Assembly (NCBI GenBank): GCA_023489335.1
Contig: JAMDCP010000007.1
Coordinates: 1-64,000, forward strand
Direction: 5' to 3'
DNA length: 64,000 nucleotides
Source: Deltaproteobacteria bacterium
GTDB lineage: Bacteria > SZUA-79 > Acidulodesulfobacterales > Acidulodesulfobacteraceae
A program made the position numbers and the translations under genes. Below, in pieces: positions 25,955-41,003 of the stretch (the stretch's first letter is position 1; every line of letters begins with the position of its first letter). A model generated the notes under the pieces. It saw only the letters and a program-made list of their open reading frames with translations. It was not told the origin of the DNA and made no database searches.

Positions 25955-26617
25955 CTATTTTAACGACTCAAGGTATCTTGCGATTGTGTTAAGCTGCGAT
26001 GCGGGAATATTTTTTAATTCGGGCATTATCACAAGATAAGTATGTCCATTAATGGTAGCCGGTATTCCGTAAGTAAAATGAACGCTCGGAGCGACTATTT
26101 GAGTTTCAATCCATGACAGGCTTTTTGTTTTTCCGATATGGGAAAGGTTGGGGCCGACAGTGCCGCCTACTCCATTTATTCTGTGGCAGGCAACACAGTT
26201 ATCCGCTCTGAAAAGCAAAAGCCCTTTAGGCGGTTTTTTGTAAGCCAAATTTGCTCTCTTATACGGAAAAGATTTAATGTATCCGGCTAATTTATTGACA
26301 ACCGAAGAGGGTATGGTTTTTGCAAATCCAGGCATCCTGGTTAAATAAATTTTCCCGTTAATTTCCTTTTTCTCCCCCAAAATAAAATGGCTATCGGGAT
26401 TTAGTATCTGGGCTTTAATCCAGGAAAAACTTTTTGTTTTTCCGACATAGGAAAGATCAGGCCCGACTGTTCCGCCCTGATGTCCCAAGGTGTGGCAATC
26501 GATGCAGTAATATTCCTTAAAAAGTTTAGGCCCCGAAGGCAATGCAAAAGCAAAATTCGAAATAAAAAAAATAGCCGCCATGCAAAATGCCATGACAAAA
26601 AAAATATACCTTTTCAT
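25955..26617 (-). CDS. Exported diheme cytochrome c made of two tandem small-cytochrome domains
   Basis: A signal peptide (IFFVMAFCMAAIFFISNFAFA) precedes two homologous class I cytochrome c domains with heme motifs CIDCH and CVACH. Each is followed by the same pattern GGTVGPxLSxxGKTKSxSWI and a later PxHF segment and methionine region, so it should be a periplasmic electron carrier. It ends in YLESLK like the small cytochromes at 37.4-38.7 kb, so the five domains are one paralogous family. It has its own upstream copy of the three-half-site regulatory element, so it is predicted to be coregulated with the d1 operon although it lies downstream of its response regulator. Confidence 0.92.
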   Translation of the reverse strand: MKRYIFFVMAFCMAAIFFISNFAFALPSGPKLFKEYYCIDCHTLGHQGGTVGPDLSYVGKTKSFSWIKAQILNPDSHFILGEKKEINGKIYLTRMPGFAKTIPSSVVNKLAGYIKSFPYKRANLAYKKPPKGLLLFRADNCVACHRINGVGGTVGPNLSHIGKTKSLSWIETQIVAPSVHFTYGIPATINGHTYLVIMPELKNIPASQLNTIARYLESLK

Positions 26618-26880: not shown

Positions 26881-27540
26881 TTATTGTTTTAAAATTTTAA
26901 GTTTTTCTACAATAAAATCTACAAGTTCGGATTTCTTCTCGAGACCCAATTTTTCCATTCCTCTTGAACGGTATGTTGTAATGGTTTTCTCGCTCAATAA
27001 GTGTTTTTCCGCAATTTCCTTATTTGTAAAACCATGCGCAATGCCTATCATAACCTCCTGTTCTCTTGGACTTAAACTATTCCAGAGAAATTCCCCCTTG
27101 CTTAATTTACCGTCCCGAATCTTGGATTGCGGGCCGCTTATAAATCCTTCTACCATGGAAGGATGAATATAGATTTCTCCTCTTGCCACCGTTCTGATTG
27201 CATAAATTAAATCGTAATCCATTGCCTTTTTTACTAAAAACCCCGACGCTCCCAAATCAAGAGCTTTCTTAAGATACTGCTTATCTTCATACATGGTTAA
27301 CACCAGTATTCTTGATTCCGGCGATACTTTTTTAAATTTTATAATCAGGTCCAGTCCGTTTGCGTCTGGTAAAGATATATCAAGCAGCACAATATCGGGG
27401 TTTTTTGACTTTATAAGTTGAACGGCGGATAACGCATCCGGCGCCATGCCGACCACTTTTATATCGTCCTGACCGTCAAGCAAAACCTTTAAGGCAGTGA
27501 GCAATATATAATGGTCGTCAACCATACATATTGTTATCAT
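26881..27540 (-). CDS. NarL/FixJ-type response regulator, paralogue 1
   Basis: The 219-residue protein has a receiver domain (acidic pocket VDDHYILL, phospho-acceptor aspartate in IVLLDISLPD, conserved lysine in SGFLVKKAMDYD). A LuxR/NarL helix-turn-helix follows, SPREQEVMIGIAHGFTNKEI then AEKHLLSEKTI. It closely resembles the regulator at 38837-39493. It is the last gene of the operon beginning with the d1 cytochrome, 42 bases after the molybdopterin subunit. No kinase adjoins it, so it may share the kinase at 39495-41003 or form a feedback loop. It is a likely DNA-binding candidate for the three repeated elements. Confidence 0.93.
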   Translation of the reverse strand: MITICMVDDHYILLTALKVLLDGQDDIKVVGMAPDALSAVQLIKSKNPDIVLLDISLPDANGLDLIIKFKKVSPESRILVLTMYEDKQYLKKALDLGASGFLVKKAMDYDLIYAIRTVARGEIYIHPSMVEGFISGPQSKIRDGKLSKGEFLWNSLSPREQEVMIGIAHGFTNKEIAEKHLLSEKTITTYRSRGMEKLGLEKKSELVDFIVEKLKILKQ

Positions 27541-27582: not shown

Positions 27583-30500
27583 TCACAGCTTTTCTATCCT
27601 GACCGGAGCGTAGTAGTAAACCATCGAGCCTCCCACCGGGTCAGTTAAGTTTGTCGCCCATCCGTCTTTGGCCGCAATGGAGTTGTCCAGAAGGAACAGG
27701 GCATTCGGATGAACTCCCTGATTCCTTGCGGGGTCTCCCGTATATTTTTTCCCGTCTATATACCACTCTCCCGAGCCGTAAAGCCACCTTCCGAAAGCAG
27801 TCGCCGCAGTGATGACGCCCGGCCTGACGGACGGCAAAATCCTTACCCTGTGGGTAATCCCTTTTGGATAGGTAGGCGATATTACCTTTATGGTATCTCC
27901 ATCGGACAAGCCAATCTTTTTGGCATCTATAGCGCCAATCTCCCAGAATGCATCGGGAAGCAGTTCCTGAAGCCACGGATCGGCCATAGTCCTGGATTTT
28001 GAATGTATCGGCTGTCTGTGGGTGGAAACCATTAAAGGATATTCTTTCCGCGAATATATTTTATCTAAAATTTCGCCTTTCATATTTCTGTGGGGCAACA
28101 ATATCGTCGTTCCGTTGAACCTTTCGCCCGAAATAGCATTATGTGTCGTAGCTACCTGTTCGTTATACAAATGAACCGGGGTATCGGGCGACCACAGATG
28201 CGTTACCCATTTCGGTTTTCCCCAGGGAAGATATCCCGTGTCGTAATCCTCGAACCTGCCGCCTCTTGCAATCACGTACGCCGTTTTTTTCCACTCCGCA
28301 GGTTTAAGAGCTTTCCCGTGTTTTCTTATGTAATTTTTTACATATTGCATTTCATCCGCATTTGCATCGGGAACGGGTCCCAAATGAACAAATCCGTTCC
28401 CCTTTTTCTTTAGAAAGGTTTTGCCGTCATAGGCTATATTGGCAGCCATTTTGAGATAATAATCCTCTCTTTCGTCAAGACTTCCGCCCTCAAGGAAGGC
28501 GTTTTCGCCGAATCCGGGAAGTTTAATAGATTTTGCGACATCTATTAAAAAATTCTCCACGCAAATGGGTCTTCCGTCCGGAGTCTTTTCGGTCATAGGC
28601 TCTGTAACGGGCTGCCTGATGGAAGTCCTTGCGGTGGGATATGTCGGAAGGTTGCCGAGGAATCCCCACCCTTCAAGATATGTCGTATCCGGAACTATAT
28701 AGTCCGCATAAGCGCTACTTTCCGAAATATAGGCATCCGATGCGATAAATAACGGTACTTTATCCGTATCTTTTATCATTCTCATCCACGGCTTTGATTC
28801 ATCGTTGATTCCGCCCATTGCAGGCATAGACCAGGCGGGATTCGCCATGTGCTGAAATAATATCTTTACGGGATAGGGGTACTGGAAATATGTTCCGCCC
28901 CAGATCTCCTGCCACATGCCGAAGCTGAAAGGAAACCAGGGCCTTTGCGCCGGATACGGGGAAATTCCCCTTGACGCTTTTTCTTTATATTCTAACGTAT
29001 CTTCGTAATATGAACCTTCTCTTGAAATCTTTACGCCCTTTGCGGGAACGAAGCCCGGCCACTTTCCAAGATTATAGGGATAGCCCTTGCCGCCCATTAT
29101 GTTTGCGCTTCCCCCTCCGTTAATATAACCCCCCTGCCAGTTTATATTGCCCACCATGACATTTAAAAGCTGGATAGCCCTGCCGTTATAAAACCCGTTC
29201 GTGTGCTTTACCGGACCCCTGTAATAATCCGCCACCGCCGTTTTGCCGTGGGAGGTAAACTCCTGCGCAAGCTCCGTTACCACCCTCGGTGCAAGTCCGG
29301 CTTCCCTGGCATATTCGTCTAAACTATGTCTGACGAGTTCGCTCCAGAGCATCTGCATGGATGTCATGCAGTTAACGCCGTTAACCAGAACTGGGCTTAA
29401 GGATAAAAACCCGGTAGGCCAGAGTTCGCCTTTTGTAGAAACAGAGGTAAGAACGGGCTTTTTGGTAAACTTATCCACGGCATAAAAAGAGCTTCCGCTC
29501 TTCAGGAACTTTGCAAAGTCCTTGTTCCCCTCATCGGCTACTACAAGGTAGGACGCATTGGAAAAGTTAGGTTCTCCGCTTGCGTTTGCGGAAGCGTGGT
29601 TTAAGTTTTCAAGGAAGTTCCCGTCGTATCTTTTGTTTTCTATTATCCATCTAAGCATGCCCATGGCTAAAGCCCCGTCGCCGCCGGGGACTATGGGGAT
29701 ATACTTATCCGCATGGGCAATCATATTGCCCGCCCTTACATCTATTACCGTTACTTTTAATCTGCCTGACGATGTAGCGGCTACCGTTCTTCTTGCCAGA
29801 GTCTGCATAGGAAAGTTGGCTTCAAGATAATTGGCTCCGAAAATCAGGAGATGCTCGCAGTTAGGCAGATCTGGCTTAAGCATATTGGTTCCGGGGAACG
29901 TCCTGAATGTCGATACGTGATGAGATAAGTCGCAGATAGAAACATGGGGCAGGGCGTTCACCGAACCAAGCGCATTGGCAAACCTTGCCATAAGATTGGA
30001 CACCCCACCCTCGCCCCTGCCCCAGTAAGAAACATACTGGTTGGTTCTGGGTCCGAAATCGGGGTATTTTGGGTTTGCGGGGATAAACCTGTTCCTGCCT
30101 TCGTTCCATAAGTGCTTAAAGCCTTCCACGAACCTTTTCTCCTCCCCCGGCACATCCTTAAAGAGATAACCGCCGTTTACCACTTCGTCTATTAACTGTT
30201 CGTAGGAAATTGCCCTGAACTTCTTGGAACCCCTTTCCCCGACCCTTTTTAAGGGCATGTATATGCGGTAGGGGTCGTAAACGGTCTGCCTTCCAGCCAC
30301 GCCCCTTGGGCATACGGAGTGTGCTCCGTCAACGAAAGGCCGTTCGCTCGGCGAATAATACGACCCGGTATAAATTATCGAATCCTTTGCGGGGGTCGAA
30401 TACCTGATATTGGGTTGCGTAGTCTGTATGTCATAGGGATTGCCGAAAATCGGCAATATCGTTCCGTTGAACTTTCTTACCATAATCCCGCAATCGCTAT

Positions 30501-30684
30501 GGCATTGCTTGCAGGTCGAATATATAACCTCTTCGCCGGGCCATGTCTCAGGCCTTGTCGGGAATGTATATTCCCCCTCGTAATAAAACATCCCTCCCGC
30601 CCACTGGCTTAAACCGGCTCCGGTTGCCACGGCAGACACTCCAAAAACCCCGTACTTAAGAAAATCTCTTCTATTCATAGACAT
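27583..30684 (-). CDS. Tat-exported molybdopterin oxidoreductase catalytic subunit (TtrA/ArrA/PsrA-like)
   Basis: A 1033-residue DMSO-reductase-family protein. The Tat signal is NRRDFLKYG at residues 4-12. A [4Fe-4S] site is visible as CKQCHSDC (58-65) plus SVCPRGV (C125); the long gap before the fourth cysteine recalls tetrathionate/arsenate reductase-like members. HVSICDLSHH places a candidate molybdenum-ligand cysteine at residue 251. The C-terminal molybdopterin-dinucleotide domain includes PIHSKSRTMADPW and GLSDGDTIKVISPTYPKG. With the Fe-S and NrfD subunits upstream it forms a CISM-type complex facing the periplasm. Size suits TtrA (about 1000 residues), but sulfur, polysulfide, arsenic and nitrogen substrates cannot be distinguished. 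Confidence 0.9.
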   Translation of the reverse strand: MSMNRRDFLKYGVFGVSAVATGAGLSQWAGGMFYYEGEYTFPTRPETWPGEEVIYSTCKQCHSDCGIMVRKFNGTILPIFGNPYDIQTTQPNIRYSTPAKDSIIYTGSYYSPSERPFVDGAHSVCPRGVAGRQTVYDPYRIYMPLKRVGERGSKKFRAISYEQLIDEVVNGGYLFKDVPGEEKRFVEGFKHLWNEGRNRFIPANPKYPDFGPRTNQYVSYWGRGEGGVSNLMARFANALGSVNALPHVSICDLSHHVSTFRTFPGTNMLKPDLPNCEHLLIFGANYLEANFPMQTLARRTVAATSSGRLKVTVIDVRAGNMIAHADKYIPIVPGGDGALAMGMLRWIIENKRYDGNFLENLNHASANASGEPNFSNASYLVVADEGNKDFAKFLKSGSSFYAVDKFTKKPVLTSVSTKGELWPTGFLSLSPVLVNGVNCMTSMQMLWSELVRHSLDEYAREAGLAPRVVTELAQEFTSHGKTAVADYYRGPVKHTNGFYNGRAIQLLNVMVGNINWQGGYINGGGSANIMGGKGYPYNLGKWPGFVPAKGVKISREGSYYEDTLEYKEKASRGISPYPAQRPWFPFSFGMWQEIWGGTYFQYPYPVKILFQHMANPAWSMPAMGGINDESKPWMRMIKDTDKVPLFIASDAYISESSAYADYIVPDTTYLEGWGFLGNLPTYPTARTSIRQPVTEPMTEKTPDGRPICVENFLIDVAKSIKLPGFGENAFLEGGSLDEREDYYLKMAANIAYDGKTFLKKKGNGFVHLGPVPDANADEMQYVKNYIRKHGKALKPAEWKKTAYVIARGGRFEDYDTGYLPWGKPKWVTHLWSPDTPVHLYNEQVATTHNAISGERFNGTTILLPHRNMKGEILDKIYSRKEYPLMVSTHRQPIHSKSRTMADPWLQELLPDAFWEIGAIDAKKIGLSDGDTIKVISPTYPKGITHRVRILPSVRPGVITAATAFGRWLYGSGEWYIDGKKYTGDPARNQGVHPNALFLLDNSIAAKDGWATNLTDPVGGSMVYYYAPVRIEKL

Positions 30685-30702: not shown

Positions 30703-31950
30703 TTACCTCTTATTATTTTTACCTTCTATTTCTTCCTTTCCGTCCCATTCGAACTCGAATTTCGGTTTCGGCGGCAGGCTTAATTCTTCGGGGTCGTGTT
30801 CCCATCCTAAAAAATAGCCGAAAACGAATATTAAAAGAATACCCAATCCAAATAACCCTATGCCTGTCAAATATCCATCGTAACCCAAGAATGGAATATG
30901 TAAGTTAACAAGCCCCTGCCCTATCCTTGTTGGAAGCTGTCCGCCGATTACTGTATCGAACCTCATTTCGAAAACGCCTACCGTAACGATAAAATCTAAA
31001 ATTAATGTCCAGGCTAACGACCTCCTGACCTTTTCGAATACAAGGAATAAAAATGCCGGGATTATAAGTCCTAAGCCTATTTGCAACACATGATAATTAA
31101 ACCATAACGGACCGTGGCCTGCAAAACTATATACCGCATGCCAGTTATCATACACTGCTTTTGAATTATATCCGCGCACCGAATAGAGCCATTCGATTAA
31201 ATCGAAAAAAAGGTCCGCAAATATTGCATAGACTAAAGACTTATTAAGAACATCCAGAGTATCCGGTTCAACCTTATTTTTCTTCGAAAACAAAGGAAAA
31301 CCGATACCGTATAATAAGCCTACAAAAGCAATGCCCGAAACAACCGCCGATGCTATAAACATAGGGGGTATGACAGGGTCGGACCATAATGCCCGTGCCT
31401 TTATGGCGCCGAATAAAAATCCGACATAACCGTGAAATAAAATAGAAAGAATAATTCCGAGAATGGATATGATCCAGAGGGCTTTATGGTCCCTCGCAAT
31501 GCTTTCTTTAGATAAATCCGTGCTTCCCAATGTTAAAATTTTGGATACCTTGCCCCTTATTCCTTTATCCTTACTTGCCCTTTTAATATTGCTTTCCCTG
31601 AAGAGATAATAAAGTTCGAAAAGAAAGGCGATAACAAATATTGTCCATATTATAATGAACATGCCCAGAGGCGAATAGGGGAAATGGTCCCTGAAATATA
31701 ATTCCCATATAGCCCTCGAAGGCTGAAGCGCATCTGCTAAAGGCGCTATCGCCGCCAGTAAAAGCATTGCAAAACTTGCTATTAAGGAAAGCTGGGAAAT
31801 AGGCTTAAGCTTTTCTATGTGAAAAAGGTGGTACAATGCCCCAACGACGAAAGAACCTGCCAGCAAACCCGAAAGAAACGGATAAATCACTATGGGCAGC
31901 CCCCAGTAAATATTTTCCAAAGTACCGTAAGAACCGTTAATTGCAATCAT
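30703..31950 (-). CDS. NrfD/PsrC-type integral membrane subunit of the molybdopterin complex
   Basis: The 415-residue protein has about nine or ten hydrophobic helices and the NrfD-family pattern, including IVIYPFLSGLLAGSFVVGAL at the N-terminus and an acidic residue-rich loop (ELYFRDHFPYSPLG). This family exchanges electrons with membrane quinones and has no heme of its own. It lies between the Fe-S subunit (34 bases upstream) and the catalytic subunit (18 bases downstream), the typical three-subunit arrangement. The charged C-terminal tail is probably cytoplasmic. Confidence 0.9.
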   Translation of the reverse strand: MIAINGSYGTLENIYWGLPIVIYPFLSGLLAGSFVVGALYHLFHIEKLKPISQLSLIASFAMLLLAAIAPLADALQPSRAIWELYFRDHFPYSPLGMFIIIWTIFVIAFLFELYYLFRESNIKRASKDKGIRGKVSKILTLGSTDLSKESIARDHKALWIISILGIILSILFHGYVGFLFGAIKARALWSDPVIPPMFIASAVVSGIAFVGLLYGIGFPLFSKKNKVEPDTLDVLNKSLVYAIFADLFFDLIEWLYSVRGYNSKAVYDNWHAVYSFAGHGPLWFNYHVLQIGLGLIIPAFLFLVFEKVRRSLAWTLILDFIVTVGVFEMRFDTVIGGQLPTRIGQGLVNLHIPFLGYDGYLTGIGLFGLGILLIFVFGYFLGWEHDPEELSLPPKPKFEFEWDGKEEIEGKNNKR

Positions 31951-31984: not shown

Positions 31985-33178
31985 TTAACCGGCGTAAGGG
32001 TGTTCCCTTTCTTCTATATATGGCAATACGGGTGTTCCGCCTAATTTTTCGTAAGCATTGGTTTTAAGACCCATCGTATATGTGTAAATCATCTTTACCT
32101 TTTCGGGATTAGTTGGGCCTGCAAAATTTTCGTCGAGTCCTATGTAGTAAACCTGAGGGTCTGTCCCATAGGATAGATTTAGCCTCGAGGTTTTATTGGT
32201 CGCTATTAATCTTGAAACCTCGCTCTCCGGATCGTTTGTGTCTCCAAACTTCATCGCCCTTCCAACGCATGAAGTAACACAAACCGGTAAAAGCGGAGTA
32301 TATGGCCTTTCATGGGAAACCGCCGCTCTGCTTGCACACATATTGCATTTGTCCGCGGTATGTTGTACCGGGTTTGCAAATCTCATGTTATACGGACATG
32401 CCTGAACGCAGGTAAGGCATCCGATACATAAATCGTAATCGATTTCAACCTGTCCCGTCTCCAGCTTATATGTGGCCTTTACGGGACACACCTCGACGCA
32501 CGGGGGGTGGTCGCAATGGTTACATGTTCTGGGAAGAAAAAATCTCTTGACATTAGGGGTATAATTCCCTTCTTCCGTAACAACTATGCCGTTCGCATCA
32601 GGAACCATTTCCCCTGTCTCCATAACATCCACAACTCTTCTAAAAACCCCGAGAGGGACGGAGTTTTCGCTTTTACAGGCGACAACGCAAGCCTGGCATC
32701 CGACGCATTTATTGACATCTATTACAAAGACAAAATGGTGTATTTTAGGTCTTATTTCCTTTATTCTATAAAATTTATCGTGAAAAATTCTGGCGTGAAG
32801 CGGATTCTGAATTGTATTCTGCCAGTGGTCCCACCCGTCTTTTATGTACTGCGACGGATTTTTCCAGTTCATCCATCTGTGGTTTTTTAAAGGTCCGGTT
32901 ATAACGCCCGTGCCTTTTTCCTGCGTATTTAAACCGCCGCCGCTTCCTTTAAGTTTTTTTAACGGAGCGGCTAAAACTTCTTTTGGGTTAGATAAGCCGA
33001 GTATTCCGAGAGCCGATGCCGCCAATCCTCCCAATCCGAGCATTTTGAGAAATTTTCTTCGACCGGAATTTTCTTCGTCTTTCACGATATTACCGGTTCC
33101 ATCCCTGACCCAGCTCTTTTCGATTTGTCTTTCATTTTCCGTTAGTTCTTCGTTTGACTTTTCTTTTTTCTTCTTCAT
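31985..33178 (-). CDS. Four-cluster ferredoxin-like electron transfer subunit with Tat-like signal
   Basis: The 397-residue protein has an internal twin-arginine motif (RRKFLKMLGLGG near residue 40) and then a DmsB/PsrB/TtrB-type domain with 16 cysteines in four sets: CVGCQACVVAC, CNHCDHPPCVEVCP, CIGCLTCVQACP and CNMCASR...CVTSCVGRA. These should bind four [4Fe-4S] clusters that wire the catalytic subunit to the NrfD-like subunit. The N-terminal region before the Tat motif is unusually long and lysine/glutamate-rich. Its own Tat motif, like that of TtrB-type proteins, supports a periplasmic complex. Confidence 0.92.
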   Translation of the reverse strand: MKKKKEKSNEELTENERQIEKSWVRDGTGNIVKDEENSGRRKFLKMLGLGGLAASALGILGLSNPKEVLAAPLKKLKGSGGGLNTQEKGTGVITGPLKNHRWMNWKNPSQYIKDGWDHWQNTIQNPLHARIFHDKFYRIKEIRPKIHHFVFVIDVNKCVGCQACVVACKSENSVPLGVFRRVVDVMETGEMVPDANGIVVTEEGNYTPNVKRFFLPRTCNHCDHPPCVEVCPVKATYKLETGQVEIDYDLCIGCLTCVQACPYNMRFANPVQHTADKCNMCASRAAVSHERPYTPLLPVCVTSCVGRAMKFGDTNDPESEVSRLIATNKTSRLNLSYGTDPQVYYIGLDENFAGPTNPEKVKMIYTYTMGLKTNAYEKLGGTPVLPYIEEREHPYAG

Positions 33179-33199: not shown

Positions 33200-34375
33200 T
33201 TATTGTTGTTTATATAATTTATCAGGAACCCTGAATATCCCCGAAGGACTTGGAACAGGTATCCTGTCAAGTTCTTTTCCCGTACGCGCATCGAAAACAT
33301 TTACGGAATTCCCGAAATAATCCGATGCGTAAATTAATCTGCCCTGTCCCGAAAAACTCATAAACATAATTCTTCTTCCCGCTTTTATGTTTTTTATAAC
33401 CTTCATATCTTTTGCATCTATAAGCGTCAAATAATCGTGCCTGCTTCCACTGTAATTTATTGCCATTACTTTACGGTCAGGGGAAAATATTATGAATATG
33501 GGATAGCCGATAAGATTTACGGAACCTATTTTCTTTCTGGTTTTTAAATTCATAACGACTAATTTTTTTTCTCCGGCGGCGGGTATGAAGGCTTTATTGT
33601 TCCATATCGAATAAATGCCGTAATGCGGTATTTGATGAGGAAAATTCTCTTTTCCCCCGTAGGTTACGATGTGATATTCCAGGGTATTTAGATTTAATAC
33701 CCCAAACTTTTCTCCCAAAAGAAAGGCGGCTATGTAATCATGGCCGGACACTAAGGCATCGATGGGGAGTTTCCCGATGTTTTTTATTTTCTTTACAACC
33801 TTAAAGCCTTTAGAGATATTAACCACCCAAATCTGGTCCTTGCCCATAAGCTCGAATATAAGATAATTTTTATAAAACTCCACGCCTATGTTTCTTGAAC
33901 CTGTTTTTATTGTTTTTATCGTCTTTAAATCCTTATTAAGTATGACGACATCATTCGGGTCGTAATTTGCAACAGCTATATAATTTTTCGATAAACAAAA
34001 ATCTACCGTATCAATGGATACCTTCTTTTGTTTTATTATCCTGTTCGTTTTTGTGTCTATTTTAGATAAATAGCCGTTTCTGCTGATTGCATAACCGTAA
34101 TGTCTCCCAAAATACACTATGACATGGGTCCCGTTTCCTATACGCTTTATTATGCCCGTCAGTTTGTTATGCGACACTATGCCTAACGAACTGTCCGCCC
34201 TTTCCACAACATAATACTTGTCCGCAAAAACGGGCTTACACGAAATAAAAATAACGACCGTTGCAATAAAGATTAAAATTACATAAAACAGGCGGGGTCT
34301 TCCTGAAAGTAGTCCCCGTAAACCGCATAAGCCCTTGCCCTCGAACCGCCGTTGCAGACTTCCAAATAATTGCAT
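33200..34375 (-). CDS. nirF: NirF-like heme d1 biosynthesis protein (beta-propeller lipoprotein)
   Basis: NirF acts in the periplasm late in heme d1 synthesis. The sequence is a propeller-like repeat protein with stretches that match NirF by eye: VERADSSLGIVSHNKLTGI, PIDALVSGHDYIAAFLLGE, IPHYGIYSIWNNKAFIPAAG and the C-terminal VPSPSGIF. A hydrophobic segment ends in FISC, a lipobox-like site, consistent with lipoprotein forms of NirF. The ATG at 34375 has a good GGAAGG ribosome binding site, but it lies inside nirJ (97-base overlap in another frame), giving an unusual 28-residue arginine-rich leader. The next possible start is a CTG near 34291. It follows nirJ and precedes the Fe-S subunit by 21 bases. 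Confidence 0.82.
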   Translation of the reverse strand: MQLFGSLQRRFEGKGLCGLRGLLSGRPRLFYVILIFIATVVIFISCKPVFADKYYVVERADSSLGIVSHNKLTGIIKRIGNGTHVIVYFGRHYGYAISRNGYLSKIDTKTNRIIKQKKVSIDTVDFCLSKNYIAVANYDPNDVVILNKDLKTIKTIKTGSRNIGVEFYKNYLIFELMGKDQIWVVNISKGFKVVKKIKNIGKLPIDALVSGHDYIAAFLLGEKFGVLNLNTLEYHIVTYGGKENFPHQIPHYGIYSIWNNKAFIPAAGEKKLVVMNLKTRKKIGSVNLIGYPIFIIFSPDRKVMAINYSGSRHDYLTLIDAKDMKVIKNIKAGRRIMFMSFSGQGRLIYASDYFGNSVNVFDARTGKELDRIPVPSPSGIFRVPDKLYKQQ

Positions 34376-35376
34376 TTTTCACACCTTCCTTTTAGTTTTC
34401 TTGGCATTTCTCTTAATTTAGAAAATAATTTGTCTTCGCTTATTATCTCGAAAAAATCTCTATCCTTTATGTTCCCCGCTTTATAATTAAAAAACGGGTC
34501 CGGTTTAACAAATCCCGAATAATCTATGTTTATTATTCTTTTGCCCGATTGATTCCCTCCCCATTCCAATATTTTTTCGCGCATATTGTCATAAAATTCA
34601 GGGCAACGGCTTTTAAACATTTCAAGCAGTAAAATCGCATCAGGCTCGTTGTTTCCCGTAACAATATCTACCAGAATGCCGTCTTTCACAAAATTAAAGG
34701 CTGTCTCTATAACATATGAAGATATTTTTTTACGAACTGTTTTGTCTATTTCGGATGTAATGCTTCCTCTTCCCGAATAGACAAGATGAGAGATATATAA
34801 CTTTTTTACATCTTCTTTCTTAGCCATTTCGAATATAAAGGCAATGTCTTTATAGTTATACGCGGTAAGCGAGGTTCTTAAACCAACATTAACGCTTTTA
34901 TTCTTAAGCAGTCTGAGGGCTTTTAGCGAAGCCTCATATGCCCCCTCCCGCTGCCTGAACCTATCGTGCGTTTTTTCCGTCCCGTCTATGCTTATGCCGA
35001 CATAATTGAAAAGGGATTTTATCCTGCCTATATTATTTTCATTTATCATCGTTCCGTTTGTGGAGAGGTGTACCTGAAAACCGTTATCTTTGAGGATTAC
35101 TGCTATGTCAAAAAGGAACGGGGACATAAGCGGCTCGCCGCCCGAAAGTATAACGGCCTTCACATCGGCCTTTTTTAAAGACTTTACCGTGGATAGCACG
35201 AGCTCCGGCGTGAGCTTTTGAGCTATTTCGCTTTTTCCGGAGGAAGAATAACAATGCTCGCAGGAAAGATTGCAGTCGTTAGTTATATTCCATATAAGCA
35301 GTCTTCCTTTGTGGGACTTACCGCTCTGCGAATCCGGTTCTAAAGATTTTTTTATATAATCCGTTACCCTGAGCAT
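34279..35376 (-). CDS. nirJ: NirJ-like radical SAM protein (heme d1 biosynthesis)
   Basis: A radical SAM/SPASM enzyme of 365 residues. The SAM-cluster motif is CNLSCEHC (residues 35-42), followed by SGGEPLMSP and the C-terminal cysteine set GRCEKCNYLEVCNGG plus a last cysteine two residues before the end, for an auxiliary cluster. In d1 synthesis NirJ removes propionate side chains from didecarboxysiroheme. Related enzymes are AhbC/AhbD of alternative heme synthesis and PqqE-type maturases. The adjacent NirF-like and d1-type proteins favour NirJ. Its start overlaps the stop of the d1 cytochrome gene (TAATG), so translation is coupled. Confidence 0.82.
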   Translation of the reverse strand: MLRVTDYIKKSLEPDSQSGKSHKGRLLIWNITNDCNLSCEHCYSSSGKSEIAQKLTPELVLSTVKSLKKADVKAVILSGGEPLMSPFLFDIAVILKDNGFQVHLSTNGTMINENNIGRIKSLFNYVGISIDGTEKTHDRFRQREGAYEASLKALRLLKNKSVNVGLRTSLTAYNYKDIAFIFEMAKKEDVKKLYISHLVYSGRGSITSEIDKTVRKKISSYVIETAFNFVKDGILVDIVTGNNEPDAILLLEMFKSRCPEFYDNMREKILEWGGNQSGKRIINIDYSGFVKPDPFFNYKAGNIKDRDFFEIISEDKLFSKLREMPRKLKGRCEKCNYLEVCNGGSRARAYAVYGDYFQEDPACFM

Positions 35377-37121
35377 TAGTTTCCATGCCTCCAGAAATTT
35401 CTATTGCCCGCATCTTTTATAAAATCTATTAGCGCTTTAAACTCTTCCTTAGTCAGCTTGAATTTCGGCATAGCGTTATATTTATACCCAAGCAGTCTGG
35501 AAACCCTGCCGGGGTTTGTTACCTGGGCTTTAATTCCTGCATCGTTCAAATGCTTTGCTATATAAGCAAATGAGGGACCTATAGACTGCATCGTCGGGTT
35601 ATGGCACCCCCAGCAGTATGTGAAATAAACCTCTCCCCCCAAAAGTGCGGCGTCGTTCATTCTTTGATAGTTTACATAGTTATATTTTCCTATAACACCG
35701 TTCGCGGATATGCTTTTAATAATTCTCAACGAGTTTGTATTCATAATTGCAAGCTCCCCGTTTCTGCCGTAGTCGCTCACATAGGCAAGCCTTTCGTTCC
35801 CCGAAAACTGCGTATGTATGACAAGTCCGCCCTTTTTTATGACAACCTTTTTCACTTTAAAGTCATGTTTATTTATAAGAATGACTGCGTCCGAGCTGTT
35901 GTCCACCCAGAGATATTTTGTATAAGGGTTGGTTTTTACAAAAAATCCGGGTCCGCCGGTAAATACATTTCTTATAAACTTCCAGTCATACATCTGCCAT
36001 ACGGAAACAAAAGGCTTTGTCAGATTGGTCAAGGCAAAGTAAAACCTGCCTTTTCTAAACCAGAAGGATGCTCCGGCAGGGTGGGGTATTCCGTATGATT
36101 TATGAGAGCAAGCAATCCTTTTTTTCCTAAGGCTGAAAACATAAATCCTGCCGCCTTTAAAGGAACCACCAACGGCATATTCGTCTAAAGGGTCGACGAA
36201 AAAGTCCTGAAAAGGCATTGGAAGAGCATAATAAGCCGTATTTAATGTTTTTGTGTTAAGTATTCCTATTTTGGATTTATGCATAAAGGAAAATACCGCC
36301 ATGTTGTTTCTAAACAAACCGTAGATTACGCTTATTCTGTGTTTTAAAGGTATTATCTTTCGGGGTTCCAAGTTTTTAGCATTTAAAATAACGATGGATT
36401 CTGGAAGCCAGCAGGCGGCTATAACATACTTTCCGCCTTCGGAGAGGGAAATATTCCTTAAATAACGGCAGGCTCTCACTTTATAGTCTAATCTTTTGGC
36501 ATAAAAGTCATACTTGCCCACATAGCCCGTGTTAGACGGAAGATATAAATACCTCCCGTTAGGGGAATACTTAAGTCCACCGTGAATATTACCGAAATCA
36601 AACTTATTTAATATCTTAGTTCCTTTCATTATCCAGACCTTGCCGGTTCCGCCTTCTACCACTGCCATAAGATTTTTAACATTAACGGGCTTAATATCGG
36701 AATTATCCTTATTTTCATATTCTATAAGGCTGTTTTCTATATCCCGTTTTGTCCAGCGGACCTTCTTTGACGGCATTCTTAGATAACTTATTAAATCCGA
36801 TAAATCTTCAGGCGATAACTCCTTGAAGGAAGGCATGGGTATCGGATATAATCCCTTCGTTATAATAGTTTCAAGTTTATTGCGGGAGTAATGCCCGATA
36901 AACCCGGGTATAAGCGGAGGAGCTGTTTTTCCGAGCCTGTTTGCGCCGTGGCAGGCGAAACAGCCGTTTTGGATATAAATTTTACGGCCGAGCTTCTGCC
37001 TTTCCTTAAGGTTAGGGATAGGAGTAGATTCGTTTTGGGCGTTCACAGGCGACGCAATGTACAACGGCAAGGAAACGACCGATAGAAGCAATATCAAAAT
37101 TGTATTTTTAAGGGTTTTCAT
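35376..37121 (-). CDS. Cytochrome c - d1 propeller - cytochrome c protein, NirS/NirN-like
   Basis: An exported protein of about 580 residues. A signal peptide precedes a class I cytochrome c domain (CFACH), then a d1-type propeller and a second, C-terminal cytochrome c domain (CWGCH). The propeller aligns by eye with NirS: NIHGGLKYSPNGRYLYLP keeps the proximal heme-d1 histidine, YVIAACWLPESIVILNAKNL matches, and IPHPAGASFW keeps one distal histidine. The other distal histidine position appears to be Phe. Standard NirS and NirN have only the N-terminal cytochrome. It could be a nitrite reductase with fused NirC-like domain, a NirN-like dehydrogenase or another d1 enzyme. The start at 37121 was chosen over a TTG at 37151 because of GAGAG spacing. 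Confidence 0.82.
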   Translation of the reverse strand: MKTLKNTILILLLSVVSLPLYIASPVNAQNESTPIPNLKERQKLGRKIYIQNGCFACHGANRLGKTAPPLIPGFIGHYSRNKLETIITKGLYPIPMPSFKELSPEDLSDLISYLRMPSKKVRWTKRDIENSLIEYENKDNSDIKPVNVKNLMAVVEGGTGKVWIMKGTKILNKFDFGNIHGGLKYSPNGRYLYLPSNTGYVGKYDFYAKRLDYKVRACRYLRNISLSEGGKYVIAACWLPESIVILNAKNLEPRKIIPLKHRISVIYGLFRNNMAVFSFMHKSKIGILNTKTLNTAYYALPMPFQDFFVDPLDEYAVGGSFKGGRIYVFSLRKKRIACSHKSYGIPHPAGASFWFRKGRFYFALTNLTKPFVSVWQMYDWKFIRNVFTGGPGFFVKTNPYTKYLWVDNSSDAVILINKHDFKVKKVVIKKGGLVIHTQFSGNERLAYVSDYGRNGELAIMNTNSLRIIKSISANGVIGKYNYVNYQRMNDAALLGGEVYFTYCWGCHNPTMQSIGPSFAYIAKHLNDAGIKAQVTNPGRVSRLLGYKYNAMPKFKLTKEEFKALIDFIKDAGNRNFWRHGN

Positions 37122-37390: not shown

Positions 37391-37747
37391 TTACTTTAAC
37401 GATTCCAGATAATTTGCAACCGCATTCAGCTCTGCCGTGGAAAGCATATTCTTAAATGAGGGCATCATAATTGTATATTTTTTTCCGTTAATAAAAGCGC
37501 TGCCTCCCGGATTAAAATAATTATTGGGATTTTTAACGAAGTCTTTTATCCATTCGAGACTTTTTCTCGAACCTACATTGCTAAGATTAGGACCCATATT
37601 ACCGCCGCTTCCATTAATGGTATGGCAGTTTATGCATCCCTTGGTTTCGAAAACAGTCCTGCCGGATGCGGCAAAAACCACATTAACACCATAAAAAATA
37701 AAGAAAAAAAATAAAAAAAGCCTTAAAATAATTTTGTTTTCTTTCAT
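37391..37747 (-). CDS. Small exported cytochrome c (CINCH)
   Basis: This protein of about 118 residues has a strong signal peptide (IILRLFLFFFFIFYGVNVVFA), one CINCH heme motif, the shared GGNMGPNLSNVGSRKSLEWI pattern and a candidate axial methionine in IMMPSFKNM. It ends in YLESLK. It is a soluble periplasmic electron carrier, likely a partner of the d1 or molybdopterin enzyme. A longer frame starts with GTG at 37765, but GGAGG is spaced for the ATG at 37747. It is third in a row of three related cytochromes on the same strand. Confidence 0.9.
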   Translation of the reverse strand: MKENKIILRLFLFFFFIFYGVNVVFAASGRTVFETKGCINCHTINGSGGNMGPNLSNVGSRKSLEWIKDFVKNPNNYFNPGGSAFINGKKYTIMMPSFKNMLSTAELNAVANYLESLK

Positions 37748-37857
37748 TTCTTCATGCCTCCACACCTCCGTAAATTTAATTATAGTTTTATAGCCTTGCC
37801 TTATTATAAATCATTACTCAAAAAATTGCCCGCGGCATTCAAAATAATGAATCTGAA

Positions 37858-38220
37858 TTATTTCAAGGATGCTAAATATTGTGTAAGCCTATTAAGACTT
37901 TTGGCATTTATTTTTTTATTTGCGGGCATAATCGACTCATACACCTTTCCATGAAAAATGACAAAAGAGTGGGGCGTAAAAAAATTTAAGCCGGGGTTCT
38001 TTATCTGCCTTCTAATCCAGGAATAGCTTCTGATTTTACCTATATCCGAAAGGTTTGGACCCCACGACCCGCCTTTTCCGTGAATGGCATGGCATAAAAT
38101 ACACCCCTCCTTTTTAAACAACTGTTTACCCGTCATGTTGCCTGCCATGGCATAACCCGCATTTAAATTTATTACAGTAAATCCTATTACAAAAACCGCT
38201 AATAAAAACATATTTTTCAT
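37858..38220 (-). CDS. Small exported cytochrome c (CILCH)
   Basis: This protein of about 120 residues has a signal peptide (MFLLAVFVIGFTVINLNAGY), one CILCH heme motif, then HGKGGSWGPNLSDIGKIRSY, SWIRRQIKNP and a candidate axial methionine in ESIMPANK. It ends in YLASLK. AGAGGAG before the ATG at 38220 decides the start over an upstream ATG at 38274. It is the most diverged copy of the local cytochrome family. It should be periplasmic and cotranscribed with its neighbours. Confidence 0.9.
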   Translation of the reverse strand: MKNMFLLAVFVIGFTVINLNAGYAMAGNMTGKQLFKKEGCILCHAIHGKGGSWGPNLSDIGKIRSYSWIRRQIKNPGLNFFTPHSFVIFHGKVYESIMPANKKINAKSLNRLTQYLASLK

Positions 38221-38347
38221 GATTTTAATCTCCTCTAAATAAGTATAGATTCCTGCTGAAGCGGGTTGGGACAAAAGTAAAATAGCATGAAATTTTCTAT
38301 ACTATCCTACCCTAAGACCCTGCAGAGAATACGCTTTTATTAAAACC

Positions 38348-38686
38348 CTATTTTAGCGATTCCAAATATTCAGCTACAGTTTCGAGCTGCGCAGGTTTTA
38401 AATGAAAATGGGGCATTATAGACGACGGATTATGGTCGCCCGGATTCTTAATTTGTACTTCGAGCCAGTGAATACTGTGCCCTTTTGCTCCTTCGGTAGA
38501 AAGAGCCGGCCCGATTGTCCCGCCGACGCCGTTTATCGTATGGCAGCTCAGGCATCCGTTCGCATTAATAATCTTCATAGCCCTTGCGGCATTTGATGTT
38601 TGCGCCTGAGCTTTGGCGGCGCCGTAAAGAAATAAAATTGATAAAAACATAGAAAAAACAACAATCATTATCCTATAACTTTTCAT
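38348..38686 (-). CDS. Small exported cytochrome c (CLSCH)
   Basis: A 112-residue cytochrome with signal peptide (IMIVVFSMFLSILFLYGAAKA), heme motif CLSCH, GVGGTIGPALSTEGAKGHSI, HWLEVQIKNPG, and a candidate axial methionine in SSIMPHFHL. It ends in YLESLK. It is the first gene downstream of regulatory element copy C, about 76 bases from the proximal half-site, and so probably leads a three-cytochrome transcription unit that stops at 37331-37368. Confidence 0.9.
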   Translation of the reverse strand: MKSYRIMIVVFSMFLSILFLYGAAKAQAQTSNAARAMKIINANGCLSCHTINGVGGTIGPALSTEGAKGHSIHWLEVQIKNPGDHNPSSIMPHFHLKPAQLETVAEYLESLK

Positions 38687-38836: not shown

Positions 38837-39493
38837 TTATTTTTTTAATATCTTAAGCTTAAAAAAAATTAAATCTATTAACTCCGATTTATTTTCGAAG
38901 CCCAATTTTTCCATGCCTCTTGAACGATATGTCGCAACGGTTTTCTCGCTCAAAAAGTGCTTCTCGGCAATTTCTTTATTGGTAAAACCCTTGGCAACCC
39001 CGGTCATAACCTCCTTTTCCCGATTACTTAAAGCATTCCATAAAGCCTCTTCCCTGCTAAGAACATCCTCCGATGCTTTATTCTTATTCGCCATAAAATC
39101 TTCAAGCAGCTGCGGATGTATATATATTTCCCCACGCGCTACCGTCCTTATCGCATAGACTAAATCATAGTCCATGGCTTTTTTTACCAAAAAACCGGAA
39201 GCGCCTGCATCGAGAACTTTTTGCATATACTGCTTATCTTCGAACATAGTTAAAATCAGTATTTTTGAGTTGGGCGAAACTTTTTTGATTTTTGGAATTA
39301 AATCGATTCCGCTTATCTTCGGCATGGATATGTCAAGCAAAACGACATCGGGGTTTTTCGTTTTTATAAGTTCGACGGCACGCAAAGCATCATTGGCTGT
39401 TCCCGCAACACTAATGCCTTCCTGGCTGTCTAAAAATATTTTTAAAGTCGTAAGCAATATAGAATGGTCGTCAACTAATACTATTGTTATCAT
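38837..39493 (-). CDS. NarL/FixJ-type response regulator, paralogue 2
   Basis: A 218-residue regulator with receiver domain (VDDHSILL, DVVLLDISMPKI, GFLVKKAMDYD) and a LuxR-type helix-turn-helix (SNREKEVMTGVAKGFTNKEI, AEKHFLSEKTVATYRSRG). It is one base downstream of the histidine kinase gene, so they form a cognate pair. It is very similar along its length to the regulator at 26881-27540, including the recognition helix, so both may bind the same sites. The repeated element copy C starts directly after this gene. Confidence 0.94.
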   Translation of the reverse strand: MITIVLVDDHSILLTTLKIFLDSQEGISVAGTANDALRAVELIKTKNPDVVLLDISMPKISGIDLIPKIKKVSPNSKILILTMFEDKQYMQKVLDAGASGFLVKKAMDYDLVYAIRTVARGEIYIHPQLLEDFMANKNKASEDVLSREEALWNALSNREKEVMTGVAKGFTNKEIAEKHFLSEKTVATYRSRGMEKLGFENKSELIDLIFFKLKILKK

Positions 39494-39494
39494 A

Positions 39495-41003
39495 TCAGGT
39501 ATTCTCCCTCTTATCTATAACAGGAATATAAAATTTGACCACTGTCCCTAAATTTTTTTCGGATTCGACGGTCAATTCGCCTCCAAATATTTTTGCCCTT
39601 TCTTTCATGCCGTTTATTCCCAAATAATCCTTATTTTCGTCGCAACATCCAAAGCCTTTTCCATCATCCTGAACGATACCCCTAATTTTTCCATCACGCA
39701 TTTCAAGAATTATGGTAACGGAATTGGCGCATGCATGGCGGATAGCATTTAATATTGCCTCCTGAACTATCCTGTATATATTTACTTCCATATTTTTATC
39801 CAGAATGTAATTCTCGATATTGATGGGATAAAAATCTATTTTCATATTAGGATTATTTTTAACAGCCGTCTCAATATATTGATTAATAGCATTAATCAAC
39901 CCTGCTTCATCGAGTATGCTGGGCCTTAAGTTTTTAGCTATATCATGTATGAGATTAAACCCTTCCGTTAAATCATCCCTTATTTGATGAATTTTAATTT
40001 TAACTTCACCCGGGTCATTTATATCGTCAAGTATTCTGAGCCTTATTTTTAAGGAAGAAAGAAATTGACCAAGCGTGTCATGCAGACTGCGGGAGATATT
40101 TTTTCTTTCTTCTTCCTGCGCATTAATGACCCCGCTTATAAAATTCTTCCTTAAGTCTTCATTTTTAATCTTCTCCAGTTCCGCTTCCTTTAAGCTTAAA
40201 GCCATTTCGTTAAAAGCTTTCGAAAGTTTTCCTATCTCATCACCACCTAAAGTATTAACATGAACATCGTAATCGCCATTTTTTATCCTTTCGGCAGCTT
40301 CCCAAAGCTTAACTATCGGGGTCGAAAACCGCCATGCAATAATCTCAAACATCAAATACAACAAAATAGCCGTAAATATTAAAATTAAGCCGATATTTTT
40401 ATAAAAAGAGGGGGCTTCGCGCGTAAAAAAGGAGTCTTTCAAATGTTTCAGGGATACGCCAATCCTTATAACCCCAAGTTTACCGTTAAATACGGGAACG
40501 GATGTATCCAAAATTTTTCCATATACGGCGCTTGCTAATTTAACGGTAGATAAATGATTTCGGGCACCCTTAACCTTTAATACATTATTAGCGATATCTA
40601 AATAAAAACCCTTCCGAAAAGCGGAGGCAATTATTACCCCTTTGTTATTACGGTAAAATATATACAGGATACTCTTATTATTTTTAATCTCGTTCCTTAG
40701 TAAATTATTCAGCCTGTTAACATTTCGATTAAGAATAAAATTTGCCGCATTTTCTTTGATATGCCTTTCAATAACTATACTCATAAACTTTGCATCATGA
40801 GAAATTTCCCCGTTATAAAAAGAAAACATAAAATATATAATCACGAACCCTAAAAAAAGCGTTATAAATATAGCAAGGCCGATTAACTTAATCCTTATGG
40901 AAACATTAAAAATTTTTTTCCAAATATTTAATATGGGGTAAGAAAGAAAACGAAATCCTCTCTCATGGGGCATATTTTTAATTTTTATCTTATTTGGCTT
41001 CAT
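39495..41003 (-). CDS. NarX-like membrane histidine kinase
   Basis: A 502-residue kinase. A first transmembrane helix (about residues 38-62) is followed by a periplasmic sensor region of about 130 residues, a second helix (IGLILIFTAILLYLMFEIIA) and a HAMP domain. The dimerisation/phospho-acceptor region is of the HisKA_3 type (ERKNISRSLHDTLGQFLSSL, histidine in SLHD), and the HATPase domain has N and G boxes (ILNAIRHACANS, VQDDGKGFG). It probably senses a respiratory substrate or redox cue in the periplasm; the ligand is unknown. It is paired with the regulator at 38837-39493. Confidence 0.93.
   Translation of the reverse strand: MKPNKIKIKNMPHERGFRFLSYPILNIWKKIFNVSIRIKLIGLAIFITLFLGFVIIYFMFSFYNGEISHDAKFMSIVIERHIKENAANFILNRNVNRLNNLLRNEIKNNKSILYIFYRNNKGVIIASAFRKGFYLDIANNVLKVKGARNHLSTVKLASAVYGKILDTSVPVFNGKLGVIRIGVSLKHLKDSFFTREAPSFYKNIGLILIFTAILLYLMFEIIAWRFSTPIVKLWEAAERIKNGDYDVHVNTLGGDEIGKLSKAFNEMALSLKEAELEKIKNEDLRKNFISGVINAQEEERKNISRSLHDTLGQFLSSLKIRLRILDDINDPGEVKIKIHQIRDDLTEGFNLIHDIAKNLRPSILDEAGLINAINQYIETAVKNNPNMKIDFYPINIENYILDKNMEVNIYRIVQEAILNAIRHACANSVTIILEMRDGKIRGIVQDDGKGFGCCDENKDYLGINGMKERAKIFGGELTVESEKNLGTVVKFYIPVIDKRENT

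Follow-up and report, generated by a model that had tools for sequence, protein, structure and literature searches.

A probable NirN-type heme d1 protein with an added C-terminal cytochrome c, encoded next to Ttr-like genes in a bacterial family where no NirS was found

Heme d1 is a rare green cofactor. It is stated to be present only in cytochrome cd1 (PMC6054029), and NirS is its established user and the partner of NirN (PMC3694632). Work from 2026 showed that NirF and NirC together produce dihydro-heme d1, and NirN finishes the cofactor; the exact role of NirC in these last steps is still open (PMC13168839). NirC is similar to the cytochromes at the N-termini of NirS and NirN (PMC7137109). 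Two active-site histidines are essential in the NirS of P. aeruginosa, going by the title of Cutruzzola 2001 as cited in PMC10999283. An additional cytochrome domain fused to a d1 protein, such as we describe here, is also present in the C1-C2-NirS fusion of Chloroflexi, but there both cytochromes stand before the propeller and the fused protein is NirS, not NirN (PMC8756737).

We analyzed a stretch of 64,000 nucleotides (positions 1 to 64,000 of contig JAMDCP010000007.1, assembly GCA_023489335.1), which we call the window. One of its genes encodes a protein with a heme d1 propeller between two cytochrome c domains, and we call this the c-d1-c protein (Table 1). A preliminary description of the window had read this architecture by eye, along with a conserved proximal histidine, one conserved distal histidine and a Phe at the position of the other, and all of this holds. 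Pfam places Cytochrom_D1 at residues 147–484 (143.7 bits) along with two cytochrome c matches. The heme motifs are CFACH (C54–H58, with a conserved M96) and CWGCH (C503–H507). M551 is invariant in 28 homologues. We aligned the protein with NirS, NirN and NirF references taken from annotated plasmids. In this alignment H180 (NIHGG) is the proximal histidine and H347 (IPHPAG) is one of the distal histidines, and the column of the other NirS distal histidine (SHYRP) holds F270 (YGLFRNN), which is invariant in 10/10 aligned sequences from the window's family. Because the protein has homologues that are 70–76% identical in the family (ten proteins) and 36–47% identical over the full alignment in Aquificales (about 36–48% for the proteins of the loci described below), none of these features is due to chance.

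Table 1. Positions in the window of the c-d1-c gene, the parts of its product and the surrounding genes.
Feature	Position	Strand	Basis or remark
Sensor histidine kinase, NarX/NarQ-type by best match	39495..41003	-	NarQ model 145 bits, below cut-off
Response regulator, upstream	38837..39493	-	
Small monoheme cytochrome c	38348..38686	-	
Small monoheme cytochrome c	37858..38274	-	
Small monoheme cytochrome c	37391..37765	-	
c-d1-c protein, NirN-type, 581 aa from ATG	35376..37121	-	Signal peptide residues ~1-28; Pfam, PDB match, tree
N-terminal cytochrome c domain, residues 43-115	36777..36995	-	CFACH + M96; Pfam
Heme d1 propeller, residues 147-484	35670..36683	-	Pfam and alignment
Propeller residues H180; F270; H347; H436; Y480	36582-36584; 36312-36314; 36081-36083; 35814-35816; 35682-35684	-	
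C-terminal cytochrome c domain, residues 485-581	35379..35669	-	CWGCH at 35601-35615, M551
nirJ, radical SAM	34279..35376	-	TIGR04051 373 bits (cut-off 515), above AhbC 240
nirF-like stand-alone d1 propeller	33200..34375	-	PDB NirF 6TV2, E 2.7e-35; start as listed tentative
TtrB-like 4Fe-4S protein, Tat-like signal	31985..33178	-	TtrB 183 bits, below cut-off 416
NrfD-like membrane subunit	30703..31950	-	PF03916 125.7 bits
TtrA-like molybdopterin oxidoreductase, Tat-like signal	27583..30684	-	TtrA 551 bits, below cut-off 1750
Response regulator, LuxR-type by sequence	26881..27540	-	Paralogue of the one at 38837-39493
Diheme SoxX-like cytochrome c, downstream of operon	25955..26617	-	

In the 2019 NirN structure paper in J Mol Biol, His147 is reportedly the proximal and His323 the distal ligand of NirN, Tyr461 is said to be essential and His417 to lie near the reacting carbons. 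H180, H347, H436 and Y480 of the c-d1-c protein align with H147, H323, H417 and Y461, and the match is exact, with just one residue set in the 6RTD chain having this spacing. All four are invariant in the 28 homologues. The column of Tyr480 has Tyr in every NirN and c-d1-c protein that we aligned and Phe in every NirS and NirF.

The preliminary description had suggested a NirN-like step and had proposed structure prediction and a phylogeny as checks, and both point to NirN, as do the catalytic residues and the gene neighbors. The top PDB sequence match is NirN 6RTD with an E-value of 2.7e-54, against 1e-18 for NirS. An AlphaFold model of the protein (pLDDT 83.7) also has 6RTD as its top structure match (Z 47.2 over 442 residues, 29% identity), against Z 43.4 and 18% identity for NirS. 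In a maximum-likelihood tree of the propeller, the c-d1-c proteins form one clade (100/100), which is sister to NirN with good but not maximal branch support (95/84); NirS is set apart at 100/100, and NirF has 100/99. The missing distal histidine is not something peculiar to this protein. In NirN the same column is occupied by Pro or Gln, and the c-d1-c proteins of Aquificales have Tyr or Asn there, so the absence of the second distal histidine is a NirN trait. A cd1 protein on an Azospirillum plasmid has Met in this column.

Set beside the NirN of P. aeruginosa (PDB 6RTD/6RTE), the c-d1-c protein has the same cytochrome c and d1 propeller, keeps all four residues, has no second distal histidine and is encoded with nirJ and nirF. 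It is unlike that NirN in that the identity is 27–29%, that it has an extra C-terminal cytochrome c, that the window genome is without NirS, and that it is apparently co-transcribed with Ttr-like genes. The features that we would expect of a NirN are present, namely the cytochrome c and propeller fold, the catalytic residues, the position in the tree and the adjoining heme d1 synthesis genes; those of a NirS, two distal histidines and a position in the NirS clade, are absent. The one-cytochrome layout of proteobacterial NirN, with its propeller at the C-terminus, is not matched, as residues 485–581 form a second cytochrome. Because this second domain is common to the c-d1-c proteins of Aquificales, we file the protein as a NirN variant. 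Judging from its sequence, we think it likely to act in the periplasm as a dihydro-heme d1 dehydrogenase of the NirN type, extended by a cytochrome c at its C-terminus.

The architecture is not unique to the window genome, as the proposed look into other genomes showed. Our contig scan found ten c-d1-c proteins in the window's family and one fragment in Aquificaceae, and 47 of 112 Aquificales genomes encode a protein that matches from the first through the second cytochrome domain. We read 20 of the Aquificales loci (L128–L147). In 19 of these the order is nirS, a c-d1-c gene with two heme motifs, nirJ and nirF, and in the 20th the contig stops before the place of nirS; nirE and nirDL come next in most of the 19. 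Within a 386-genome sample there are further c-d1-c proteins in G268, G404, G344, G474 and G351, again with nirS adjoining. The Aquificales proteins are like the window protein in their two cytochromes, in their identity to it and in having nirJ and nirF next to them. They are unlike it in that nirS lies directly upstream and nirE/nirDL downstream, whereas the window has no nirS and has ttrB-nrfD-ttrA next. The two-cytochrome form of NirN is apparently undescribed in the literature that we searched.

In the propeller tree the clade of the window protein nests inside the Aquificales c-d1-c proteins, closest to that of G093 (100/99). The window NirJ is likewise found among Aquificales NirJ (100/100), and the placement with G093 itself is weaker there (80/88). 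These trees suggest that the trio of c-d1-c, nirJ and nirF was acquired from Aquificales or from a source common to both. The NirS of G093 (L128:7010-8656), in the same genome as the c-d1-c protein closest to the window's, has Tyr in place of the second distal histidine.

The CWGCH domain had been likened to a fused NirC. As homology this is not supported; a NirC-like function may still be right. A phmmer search with the C-terminal domain lists no NirC, although domains of this kind are short and change quickly. The part of the c-d1-c protein that NirC does match is the cytochrome domain at the N-terminus, not the C-terminal one. The likeness is a functional parallel, in that both would be monoheme cytochromes c tied to heme d1 synthesis, NirC as the protein that works with NirF (PMC13168839). 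We consider a NirC-like function possible because no separate NirC match was found in the 20 Aquificales clusters and because a free version of the domain stands beside nirJ and nirE in a distant genome, G458. This free cytochrome (105 aa, L190:7519-7836) is 44% identical to the C-terminal domain and is encoded directly before nirJ and nirE, which supports a predicted role of the domain in heme d1 synthesis. The domain probably acts as a built-in electron acceptor, and it may replace NirC for NirF. G458 itself has a divergent cd1 protein that lacks the second distal histidine.

Downstream of the c-d1-c gene, the start codon of nirJ overlaps its stop codon (TAATG), and the gaps after nirF are about 20–35 bases, so an operon is likely. 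The nirF reading frame as listed shares 97 bases (34279-34375) with the end of nirJ, read in a different frame, and the relatives retain this overlap. We considered whether NirJ could be AhbC, but the ranking of the models (373 vs 240 bits) and a tree in which it groups with NirJ, apart from AhbC, rule this out. The nirF-like product groups with NirF (100/99), with H84 and H251 invariant. We call the complex encoded by the next three genes Ttr-like, after the tetrathionate reductase TtrABC, because the TtrA and TtrB matches do not reach their curated cut-offs. In most genomes of the family the operon lies between the two paralogous response regulators (26881-27540 and 38837-39493).

Eleven of the 30 genomes in the family encode the c-d1-c protein; these hosts are MAGs, and the order c-d1-c, nirJ, nirF, ttrB-like, nrfD-like, ttrA-like is the same in 11/11, with the contig of G016 stopping inside ttrA. 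G020 may be a twelfth case, as one of its contigs carries at its end a ttrB of the kind that goes with the trio. The genes are under purifying selection, with dN/dS of 0.09–0.13 for c-d1-c and 0.10–0.16 for nirJ. A PF02239 search found no NirS in any of the 30 genomes; the remaining matches are YVTN-type propellers, found with or without the trio. Loss of NirS to assembly gaps is not a workable explanation: multiplying (1 - completeness) across the 11 genomes gives ~7e-14, on the assumption of independent gaps.

The trio lies between the cytochromes and ttrB of a locus that is otherwise the same in G004 and G015, where the two-component genes, the cytochromes and ttrB-nrfD-ttrA are all present and the trio is missing. 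The window genome also has a second Ttr-like locus without the trio (G000:C20:99493-104969, L153), whose TtrA is 88% identical. Since otherwise identical loci without the trio exist, we believe that the trio was inserted into an existing Ttr-like locus or was lost from the others. They also rule out a Ttr complex that depends on heme d1. The L153 locus has as its neighbors genes for a PhnD-like binding protein and for a two-component system.

All of the late heme d1 steps can be assigned, at the level of sequence, to genes in the window. For the earlier steps, the window genome encodes an AhbA-AhbB fused siroheme decarboxylase (242 and 238 bits, both above the cut-offs), AhbC (694 bits, above the cut-off), an AhbD-like protein (485 of 500) and a CobA/HemD fusion. 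As AhbA-AhbB is present, didecarboxysiroheme, the substrate of NirJ, should be available from heme b synthesis, and nirE and nirDLGH would not be needed. In the pathway that we propose, the AhbAB heme pathway would supply didecarboxysiroheme, NirJ would remove two propionates and the NirF-like propeller would install the keto groups. The c-d1-c protein would then hold the product between H180 and H347 and, beside Y480, take away two hydrogens so that the acrylate is formed. Its own cytochrome domains would receive the electrons and deliver them to soluble cytochromes. The C-terminal domain would be the one to accept electrons from the dehydrogenation, and it may serve NirF in the way that NirC does.

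As the user of the heme d1, the c-d1-c protein itself is our leading candidate. The likeliest fate of the cofactor is that this protein also keeps it and does redox work with it, expressed jointly with the Ttr-like complex, because there is no NirS. Without NirS, a second role for the protein becomes more plausible. Put another way, the NirN-type enzyme would make heme d1 and probably keep it for want of a visible recipient. It is plausible, and we say this tentatively, that in this acid-mine lineage the protein has become a terminal enzyme that applies heme d1 to nitrite, NO, O2 or a sulfur compound, with the C-terminal cytochrome as its electron port, and that it is run together with the Ttr-like complex.

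One possible version, which we would not count on, is that the c-d1-c protein stands in for NirS as a terminal heme d1 reductase, turning nitrite into NO for qNOR and, in the window's species, NosZ, with dehydrogenation of the cofactor as a maturation step. The window genome encodes qNOR (PDB 3AYF, E 9e-173) and NosZ (757 bits, cut-off 625), and norB/nosZ were reported for Ca. Acidulodesulfobacterales (PMC6776010). In 1.58 Mb of the genome (about 88%, all but C19, most of C20 and the end of C16) we found no NirK, nothing for NapA above the level of distant Mo-enzymes, and no protein with at least 3 heme motifs. The extra cytochrome could be the point of electron entry. Over the 30 genomes, seven have both qNOR and the c-d1-c protein, four only c-d1-c, three only qNOR and 16 neither (Fisher p 0.015, uncorrected for relatedness). 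Against this version, the second distal histidine is Phe, Y480 and the entire pocket are NirN-type, and the four c-d1-c genomes above show no qNOR. NosZ does not work as a marker for the c-d1-c protein, as it is over the cut-off in 4 genomes and only one of these has both.

The qNOR and NosZ/NosR genes form a cluster outside the window (G000:C8:214085-219563, L075). With no NirS and, in the 88% of the genome covered, no NirK, the window bacterium is a partial denitrifier. Between qNOR and NosZ there is a 46-aa remnant that is 67% identical to the C-terminal end of the c-d1-c protein (G000:C8:217088-217225), as if it were the trace of a lost second copy.

It is unlikely, in our judgment, that the heme d1 of the c-d1-c protein acts on a sulfur compound, or as a redox relay, in concert with the Ttr-like complex and with the SoxX-like cytochromes belonging to the operon. 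The six-gene operon in 11/11 genomes and the place of the trio between the cytochromes and ttrB speak for such a link. However, the Ttr-like loci without the trio mean that the complex does not need heme d1, and the TtrA match, below its cut-off, does not identify the substrate of the Ttr-like enzyme itself. We also doubt that the locus serves biosynthesis only, with heme d1 passed to an unrecognised acceptor protein that has no detectable d1 propeller. NirN is biosynthetic elsewhere, and in Aquificales the c-d1-c gene always adjoins nirS where contigs allow, but we see no candidate acceptor, and the YVTN-type proteins that make up the other propeller matches are present in genomes without the trio too. 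A relic of a lost nir cluster with no present function is very improbable, since purifying selection (dN/dS near 0.1), invariant active sites and a complete operon in 11 genomes argue against it, even with the 46-aa remnant in its favor. Hardly credible at all is a divergent NirS nitrite reductase with one distal histidine replaced: the fold, the proximal histidine and one distal histidine are those of NirS, and the G093 NirS also deviates at the second, but the c-d1-c protein has Phe there and Tyr480 where NirS has Phe, falls outside the NirS clade (100/100) and ranks closer to NirN in structure.

We consider the NirS-less, Ttr-linked context to be the part that is worth the attention of specialists. 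A NirJ/NirF/NirN set that is kept without NirS in 11 genomes would mean either a second use of heme d1 or a NirN that serves as the end enzyme. Carrying the end of the heme d1 pathway without NirS makes the use of the cofactor in the window bacterium a testable question. There is also a risk for annotation, because such genes will be labelled as nitrite reductases and added to tallies of denitrification. With its two cytochromes, the NirN of Aquificales and others is a natural route for studying the exit of electrons from the final steps of heme d1 synthesis. Two of the other genomes with a c-d1-c protein, G404 (L185:4374-6743) and G268 (L186:2323-4692), have a 789-aa NirS with three CXXCH motifs, in which extra cytochrome domains precede the usual one.
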